This document shows positions 22,988 through 25,852 of a stretch of DNA of 55,470 nt, piece by piece; positions within the stretch are counted from its first letter, which is position 1; every line of letters starts with the position of its first letter. Origin of the DNA: a bacterium (lineage in GTDB: Bacteria > UBA9089 > JASEIO01); assembly GCA_030017475.1 (NCBI GenBank), contig JASEIO010000006.1, positions 1 to 55,470 of the forward strand, given 5' to 3'. The notes under the pieces are model-generated. The model worked only from the letters and a program-made list of their open reading frames with translations. It was not told the origin of the DNA and made no database searches. The translations under genes were made by a program, and so were the position numbers.

Positions 22988-23016
22988 ATTCTATATAATA
23001 CTGTATCATTTGTCAA
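22988..23016 (-). promoter_or_regulatory. Promoter of tRNA-Glu
   Basis: On the minus strand: -35 TTGACA (23016-23011), 17-bp spacer, -10 TAGAAT (22993-22988), ending 7 bp before the tRNA 5' end. This places the transcription start at the mature terminus. Confidence 0.7.
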
Positions 23017-23701
23017 GATAATTTAGCAGATTTTCTATATCTATATGTTGTTTAGCCAATTCAATTACATCTCCCAAATTACAAGTATTTACGTTAATTG
23101 AAGAAGCGAAGGGTAAGATCCCTAAAATCTCGACATGAGCCACCTTTTCAATAACATGTGGGTTTGTACGCTCTAAGATTCCTTCCTCTTTTAGGCCATT
23201 AATGATAACCCCTTTTATCTCTATGTTGTAATTTCTGGCACACCATATAGTCAATAATGTATGATTGATTGTTCCAAGTCCGGGTCTTGATACAACAATG
23301 ATTGGTAAGTCAAGCCTTTTTATCATATCAATAACTAAAAAGTGATCTTTCAAAGGTACACATAATCCACCAATCCCTTCAACTATCATAAAATCGTACT
23401 TATCGCATAATCTATCAAAGGAATCCCAAACCTTATTAAGATCGATAGGAGTGCCACTTACCTCTTCTACAACACTTGGTGCTAATGGCAAATCAAGGCA
23501 AATAGGATTAACCAATTCTAATGGATCACAACTTTCCACAGCCTTGATTAAAAACATTGCATCTTTGTTTCCTCCACTTGATATGGGTTTCATTACCCCT
23601 ATATTTACCCCCGTAGCTTTCAAAGCACCAGCTATGCCAGCCGAAACTACAGTCTTACCCACCTCTGTATCTGTACCAGTTATAAAAATACCTTTCTTCA
23701 T
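23006..23701 (-). CDS. bioD: Dethiobiotin synthetase
   Basis: The protein has 231 aa. P-loop [15 protein letters not shown] (residues 9-23), MKPISSGG (substrate-binding Lys), [13 protein letters not shown] (Mg-binding Glu) and [15 protein letters not shown] are standard BioD motifs. It carboxylates 7,8-diaminopelargonate with ATP to form the ureido ring of dethiobiotin. Its ATG overlaps the bioF stop as TAATG. It is the last gene of the biotin operon; bioB is not in the window. Confidence 0.95.
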
Positions 23702-24876
23702 TAGATGATTCCTAATTTGCGTCCTGCTTTTTTAAGCAAAGATAAGGCTTTATCAATATGGGATTCGGTATGTGTAGCCATAAGGGATGTTCTTATTCTC
23801 GACTGACCCTTTGGAACAGTTGGGGGTCGAATTGGAGGTGCATATATACCTTCTTCATATAAATATTTTGCTAATTCAATGGTCTTCTCGGTATCCCCAA
23901 CCAATATTGGTACAATTTGGGTCTGTGAATCCATTATGTTATAACCTAATTGAACCAAACCATCCTTAAATGACTTGACATTTTTCCATAACATACCTCT
24001 AAGCGTAGGTTCACTTGAAATCACCTGAATAGCGGAAATAGCTGTAGCTAGAACGGATGCTGGAAGTGCTGTAGAATAGATAAGGGATCTCGCCCGATTT
24101 CTTATCCAATCGATTAATATTGATGAAGCGGCTACGAATCCACCAAGACTTCCCAAGGCCTTACTTAAGGTTCCCATTTGGATGATCTGTTTATCTTCTA
24201 ATCCAAAGTACTCTAAAGTTCCCCTACCCTCTTTGCCTAATACCCCTGTTGAATGGGCATCATCAACCATTAAAAAGGCTTCATATTTCTTAGCTAAAGC
24301 TAAAAGTTCAGGTAATGGAGCTATATCTCCATCCATTGAGAATACACCATCTGTTACAATCAACCTTCTCCTATAATTACCACCTCTGCGTAAAATCCTC
24401 TCTAATTTCTCCAAATCTTTATGTGGGTAAACCCGCAATTTCCCACCTGATAACCTGCAACCATCTATAATACTGGCATGCGAAAGCTTATCGATTATTA
24501 CTAAATCCTGGCTCTCTACTAAAGAGGCTATAATCCCTAAATTGGCCATATATCCAGTAGAGAATACTACGGAACTTTCAGTTCCTTTAAATTCAGCAAT
24601 CTTTTCTTCTAACTCTTCATATAACTCTACATTTCCAGATATAAGGCGAGATGCACCACTTCCTGTGCCATACCTTTTGGTAGCATTGATGGATGCCTCT
24701 ATCAAGCGGGGATGGGTGGTCAATCCAAGGTAGTTATTTGAGGAAAGATTGATAAATTCTCTACCATCTATCAAAATTACTGGCTCTATACTGCCTTCAA
24801 CCTTTTTTAAAGTCCTATATAGATTAGCCCTTTTTAGACCATCTATCTCTTCCTTTAAAATCTTATCTAAATCCAT
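23701..24876 (-). CDS. bioF: 8-amino-7-oxononanoate synthase
   Basis: The protein has 391 aa, an alpha-oxoamine synthase with [61 protein letters not shown] (Asp and His at the PLP ring) and [15 protein letters not shown] (PLP lysine) are all present. It could in principle be a glycine C-acetyltransferase, but a position directly before bioD and after a bioU-like gene makes BioF (KAPA synthesis from pimeloyl thioester and alanine) the likely role. Confidence 0.92.
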
Positions 24877-24880
24877 TGGT

Positions 24881-25852
24881 CTACCTTACAAACAAAGGCA
24901 TGAATTCCGCTGAGCCAAATATTCCATAGATTCCATGTCTATTCAACCAAAGGGCCTTTTTCATATAACCTAAAGCTGGACCAATAACATTTGCTGCCAT
25001 ACTCGTTTCATCCCCCAAGACAAATCTATGGGAACTCCTTTTCCCATCAAATGTAATACCAGTTACTGTAACAGTTGTAGAAACTGGTTTTTTTGCATGT
25101 CTTGTATCAAGTACCCCACCAACCTCTACTTTATCACGGGACGCAACAACCCCTACCCTTTCAAGCAAGATATCGTCTGCATGTTCCATATTATGAAACT
25201 CTAAAATTCCATCTCTTTCATCAAGGAGCCTTTCTACCTCTTCATCGCTCAATGCACGAGCCTTTTCTACTGTGAAACCAGGAAGATGGGCTATATCCTC
25301 GCGAATAGTAGCCTTATAAGCATCCCAGTTAGAGATTCCAACCCCCCAAAAGATTTCTACCTTTTCAATCTCCATGTATGATTGGGAGGCTAATGAGGCA
25401 GCGGCTGATAATAGACCAGGGGTTGCCCCACAGCCAGTTATATAGGTACTTCCAACTTCTTTTAAACCATCATTTAATTCAAACATCCACTCCATTGCAG
25501 ATGTCCTTTTTAATACATCTACAAACACACCTCTGTACCTTCCCTCAATAAACCTTTTTACTGTATCTGGAATAAAGGTATTTGGTAAATTTGGCAAGGC
25601 AATAAACACTCCGTCAATCTTATCCTTCAGGTTGATTATCTCACCAATTGAATCCTGACTCGCCTTTCCTATCTCTCCTATAGACCTATCCTTTTCCATA
25701 TTGTAAATTGTATCTCCATCCAAACCATCCTCTTTAAATGCAAAGCCACGGGAGTCACAAATTGCCGAGAGCACCATCTCATGCTTCATAGAGATTATCT
25801 TAGATGCTGCCTTCCCCAATCCACCTGCTCCCAAAACAGCCACCCTAATCAT
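24881..25852 (-). CDS. bioU: BioU-like (saccharopine dehydrogenase-like) KAPA to DAPA enzyme
   Basis: The protein has 323 aa from an ATG at 25852 with AAGGAGG six bases upstream; a longer frame from 25888 lacks an SD. The N-terminal Rossmann motif is MIRVAVLGAGGLGKAAS. The family is usually labelled saccharopine dehydrogenase-like. Cyanobacterial BioU belongs to this group and converts KAPA to DAPA using its own lysine amine as a single-turnover donor. Here the lysine in FVDVLKRTSAMEW (Lys115) is at the expected place in the chain (inference; Lys124 in the Synechocystis enzyme by memory). ITGCGATPGLLSAAASLAS follows. It is first in the operon with bioF and bioD, bioA is absent locally, and a BirA-like dyad overlaps its promoter. 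Confidence 0.75.
   Translation of the reverse strand: MIRVAVLGAGGLGKAASKIISMKHEMVLSAICDSRGFAFKEDGLDGDTIYNMEKDRSIGEIGKASQDSIGEIINLKDKIDGVFIALPNLPNTFIPDTVKRFIEGRYRGVFVDVLKRTSAMEWMFELNDGLKEVGSTYITGCGATPGLLSAAASLASQSYMEIEKVEIFWGVGISNWDAYKATIREDIAHLPGFTVEKARALSDEEVERLLDERDGILEFHNMEHADDILLERVGVVASRDKVEVGGVLDTRHAKKPVSTTVTVTGITFDGKRSSHRFVLGDETSMAANVIGPALGYMKKALWLNRHGIYGIFGSAEFMPLFVR

Follow-up and report, generated by a model that had tools for sequence, protein, structure and literature searches.

The three-gene operon described here is very probably a biotin operon with BioU standing in for BioA; BioU would form DAPA by its suicide chemistry, and BirA would be expected to act as repressor. It lies in a 55,470-nucleotide stretch of contig JASEIO010000006.1 (hereafter the window) from an uncultured candidate-phylum bacterium (GTDB lineage UBA9089, JASEIO01). 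Sequence, profile and fold clearly mark the first gene as a bioU. The kind of enzyme is already known, and the protein is a further BioU; no description of this BioU, of BioU in its phylum or of its BirA-type operon was found in the open-access literature, a scope outside which the original BioU paper falls.

Layout and predicted control of the bioU-bioF-bioD operon

The genes bioU, bioF and bioD form a tight operon on the minus strand (window positions 23006–25852), at the coordinates and on the strand originally given. bioU (24881–25852) encodes a predicted suicide dehydrogenase of 323 aa that would convert KAPA to DAPA (as its carbamate). It starts at an ATG at 25852; because AAGGAGG precedes this codon, a longer TTG-started form is unlikely. 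Four base pairs separate the bioU stop from the start of bioF (23701–24876, minus strand), which encodes 8-amino-7-oxononanoate (KAPA) synthase and overlaps by 1 bp with bioD (23006–23701, minus strand), encoding dethiobiotin synthase. The assignments of both downstream genes stand, as each product scores above its NCBIfam cut-off (TIGR00858, 486.6 bits against 426 for BioF; TIGR00347, 172 bits against 83 for BioD). Just downstream of the operon comes a tRNA-Glu gene (22908–22980), also on the minus strand.

Upstream of bioU is a predicted BirA-like operator (25911–25941, minus strand), a palindrome of the form TTGTTAACC-N13-GGTTGACAA. The operator pattern matches once in the window and never in 100 shuffles of it, which bears out, as a predicted site, the BirA-like control that had been proposed. 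The arms fit the degenerate form of the published BirA operator consensus, TTGTAAACC-N14/15-GGTTTACAA (PMC545781), and TTGTcAACC/GGTTgACAA variants are listed for delta-proteobacterial biotin genes (PMC545781); the spacer of 13 is one base under the published 14–15. Spacers of 13 bases also occur in the operators of two archaeal biotin operons (L144 and L141, see below). With two mismatches allowed, five Omnitrophota-like loci have BirA-like sites ahead of their bioB-bioU operons, and a Nitrospinae bin has one near birA. Chance matches do occur: a second operator-like match, on contig C17 of the genome that contains the window (G000), lies inside an ispD-like frame and was taken as chance. No operator-like site was found before the bioB of this genome.

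The best-matching promoter of the operon is a predicted sigma-70 promoter (25888–25917, minus strand) whose −35 box, TTGACA (25912–25917), falls inside the right arm of the predicted operator, with TATATT (25890–25895) or TATTAT (25888–25893) as candidate −10 box; it has 11 of 12 consensus matches, although the call is by consensus match only and promoter-like sites are no commoner in the whole scan than in shuffles. BirA charged with biotinyl-AMP would be expected to repress the operon through an operator placed over the promoter in this way. BirA-controlled bioA operons, for example those of delta-proteobacteria (PMC545781), share the arms TTGT.AACC/GGTT.ACAA and a bifunctional BirA with a helix-turn-helix (HTH) domain; in the operon studied here, bioU replaces bioA, and the spacer is 13 rather than 14/15.

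Sequence, catalytic residues and fold of the bioU product

The bioU product aligns end to end (residues 2–323; E 3e-112) with Slr0355, the BioU of Synechocystis sp. PCC 6803 (6ir4), at 54–55% identity over the full length, and Slr0355 is the only protein among solved structures that it strongly matches in sequence. The sole strong NCBIfam match is to NF047886 (BioU), at 442.7 bits over the whole profile; the next family scores 21.7 bits. This score is below the NF047886 cut-off of 600 bits, as are the scores of the BioU proteins from all nine bioU-bearing genomes of the phylum (414–446 bits). Because none of them reaches the cut-off, NF047886 alone would not name the BioU proteins of this phylum. 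The uniform shortfall indicates that the profile is probably tuned to cyanobacteria, its cut-off being clade-specific rather than a defining feature of the family.

The original prediction proposed Lys115 as the sacrificial lysine, and the alignment with Synechocystis BioU bears this out: K115, which sits in VDVLKRTSAMEW (codon at 25508–25510, minus strand), falls on K124 of Slr0355, the residue replaced by alanine in structures 6itd and 6k37. Likewise, H224 (codon at 25181–25183, minus strand) is the predicted counterpart of Slr0355 H233, the H-to-A site of structure 6k38. The K115 position is lysine in all 91 collected BioU sequences, and the H224 position is at least 99% invariant among them. 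Slr0355 (6ir4, 6itd, 6k36, 6k37, 6k38) thus has the same fold, lysine and histidine as the protein described here. The ‘BioU’ of Ehrlichia (PMC7750005) has only the name in common, being a methyl esterase that acts at the BioH step and not a dehydrogenase.

In Synechocystis BioU, the lysine is joined to KAPA in an NAD(P)H-dependent condensation; after carboxylation of the resulting conjugate, DAPA-carbamate and NAD(P)+ leave and the lysine is lost (PMC12915131, PMC7133116). Conservation with that enzyme leads us to infer the same chemistry here. BioF would supply KAPA, which BioU would join to its own Lys115 using NAD(P)H; the KAPA-lysine conjugate would then take up CO2, and DAPA-carbamate would be released with the Lys115 nitrogen. 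Each BioU molecule would turn over once, because the lysine’s nitrogen leaves with the product. BioD would close the ureido ring to give dethiobiotin, which BioB, encoded elsewhere, would convert to biotin.

It is very improbable, though the least so of the alternatives, that this protein is instead a dehydrogenase resembling BioU that works as a true catalyst and makes DAPA over many turnovers, for example with the lysine regenerated or another amine donor used. Nothing direct speaks for multiple turnovers, but about half of the residues differ from Slr0355, which leaves room for them, and a single-turnover enzyme is costly. Conservation of K115 and H224 across the 91 sequences argues against such a catalyst, as does a predicted fold that is that of the suicide enzyme.

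An AlphaFold model of the bioU product, built from 25 relatives (pLDDT 93.9), superposes on the five BioU crystal structures with TM scores of 0.92–0.95 and rmsd values of 1.7–2.0. The best structural matches outside BioU are meso-diaminopimelate and D-amino-acid dehydrogenases, with TM scores near 0.57; yeast saccharopine dehydrogenase compared with the model gives a TM score of 0.61 at 11% identity. The label ‘saccharopine dehydrogenase-like’ first given to the gene is a loose one: the nearest non-BioU structures are the meso-diaminopimelate and D-amino-acid enzymes, with saccharopine dehydrogenase further down. Closer kinship to saccharopine or homoserine dehydrogenases, which would have spoken against a biotin role, was not seen. 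Because the BioU matches far exceed theirs in both sequence and fold, a true enzyme of either type is very unlikely. We regard it as highly improbable that the gene encodes a saccharopine-, diaminopimelate- or homoserine-type amino-acid dehydrogenase placed in a biotin operon by chance. Such a reading can draw on the shared Rossmann fold and on matches to dehydrogenases of glutamate, homoserine and diaminopimelate, but those sequence matches are weak and partial, the structural scores near 0.57 compare with 0.94 for BioU, and in many lineages biotin genes are linked to bioU, while within this phylum bioU and bioA alternate.

Biotin genes in the genome and across the phylum

The rest of the pathway was searched family by family in G000 (1.64 Mb, 98.5% complete). 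Neither the window nor the rest of the genome yielded a bioA (TIGR00508; best match 250 bits against a cut-off of 405), so the original observation of a missing local bioA extends to the whole assembly. The two TIGR00508 matches, at 250 and 142 bits, were rejected as bioA: the first is ArgD (522 bits as argD, over the cut-off), adjoined by an acetylglutamate kinase-like gene and argG, and the other is HemL (650 bits as hemL, over the cut-off), beside hemA. That a different aminotransferase of the genome, such as the argD product, is the real DAPA synthase with bioU as an accessory is scarcely credible: the two matches exist, but they score above their own cut-offs in arginine and haem contexts, and the true bioA genes of same-phylum relatives reach 546–578 bits. 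The biotin role proposed for the saccharopine dehydrogenase-like gene is supported by the aligned residues and the absence of bioA, and none of the results named as contradicting it appeared.

BioU in place of BioA fits the remaining gene content. bioB is encoded in G000 outside the operon (394 bits), and BirA scores over the TIGR00121 cut-off with an N-terminal HTH_11 domain (53 bits). The genome also encodes accC and therefore has a use for biotin. With bioF, bioD and bioB present, all late steps of biotin synthesis are covered if BioU supplies DAPA. Synechocystis sp. PCC 6803 also combines the absence of bioA with the presence of bioF, bioD and bioB (PMC7133116); the difference is that bioU in the window heads an operon with bioF and bioD and has a BirA-like operator. 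BioY was not found in G000. BioW and BioC were rejected as its pimeloyl source: BioW had no match, and BioC drew short, weak methyltransferase matches, none of them convincing. A 2026 paper calls the first stage of biotin synthesis unknown in cyanobacteria too (PMC12903740).

Among 19 genomes sampled from the phylum, with bioA counted if over the TIGR00508 cut-off, nine carry bioU, seven carry bioA, none carries both and three carry neither. This non-co-occurrence gives a two-sided Fisher exact p of 0.003, uncorrected for relatedness; the split follows families, so the genomes are not independent for the test. The three genomes with neither gene (G009, G014 and G017) have bioB without bioU and without a bioA over the cut-off, and may be incomplete bins, have broken pathways or make DAPA by a third route. 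Where the neighbourhoods of other phylum members were read, bioU lies apart from bioF, which makes the operon special to this genome within those neighbourhoods. Two relatives have a BioC-like gene just before bioA (G003:C49:13317-16096 and G008:C45:1192-3977), and no comparable gene was found in the BioU genomes tested; within the phylum, bioA and bioC may move as a pair. In a record titled Candidatus Desantisbacteria there is a bioB-bioY-bioU-bioD run (L075:2345-5577), which ties bioU to the gene of a biotin transporter.

Counted against a BioU-based operon under BirA control are the NF047886 shortfall, the failure to find BioW and BioC, the 13-base spacer and the three of 19 genomes with neither bioU nor bioA.

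Recurrence of bioU in other lineages

A single-sequence scan of genome contigs gave no match, and an alignment-based scan gave 483 relatives, of which the best 80 were kept. Another biotin gene lies nearby in 27 of the 89 bioU neighbourhoods (taxa taken from record titles), and bioF is the next gene in 21. The loci with such linkage are all non-cyanobacterial, mainly from Omnitrophota but also from Nitrospinae, Armatimonadetes and two archaea; bioF, bioD, bioB and bioW were absent from the sampled cyanobacterial loci within up to 5 kb on each side of bioU. After the residues, this linkage is the strongest functional evidence. Uninterrupted bioB-bioW-bioU-bioF-bioD runs occur in Candidatus Methanoperedens (L144:3184-7819) and an uncultured archaeon (L141:206-4831), both with BioW over its cut-off and BirA-like operators. 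These operons share with ours the bioU-bioF-bioD order, the operator type and the 13-base spacer; they also carry bioB and bioW, both missing from the window operon, and no BioW was found anywhere in G000. The view of the operon as unusual thus holds relative to cyanobacteria and to its own phylum, but not more widely, since the same arrangement turns up in archaea and in further phyla.

In many Omnitrophota, a LacI-family regulator gene stands directly before bioB or bioU (L082:2767-3768; similarly in L084, L092, L093, L094, L127 and L131), the family being Pfam-confirmed for L082 and assigned at the other loci by similar N-termini. The LacI-family protein may be an additional biotin regulator in this group.

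A quick maximum-likelihood tree was built with 86 BioU proteins, the best 80 of the 483 matches being sampled; it is midpoint-rooted and has several long branches. The cyanobacterial sequences fall into a single clade in it (support 100), and the window protein groups with non-cyanobacterial sequences (a group of 36, support 99). A recent transfer of bioU from cyanobacteria is not supported, the cyanobacterial clade excluding the window protein.

We lean, by a modest degree, towards a view in which candidate phyla and some archaea widely use BioU as their DAPA synthase, often from BirA-controlled operons, and cyanobacteria are one branch in which the gene became solitary; many members would be missed by curated annotation because its cut-off fits cyanobacteria. 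The self-spending, single-use chemistry of this vitamin enzyme is probably in use well beyond cyanobacteria. The operon and its predicted regulatory site add evidence for the role of BioU of a kind not seen at the sampled cyanobacterial loci, and BioU would fill an apparent gap in the biotin pathway of many uncultured genomes. In 2018, archaea were described as a domain for which no complete biotin pathway was yet known (PMC6138646); the predicted archaeal bioB-bioW-bioU-bioF-bioD operons would give that domain a full late biotin pathway plus BioW, by way of BioU.
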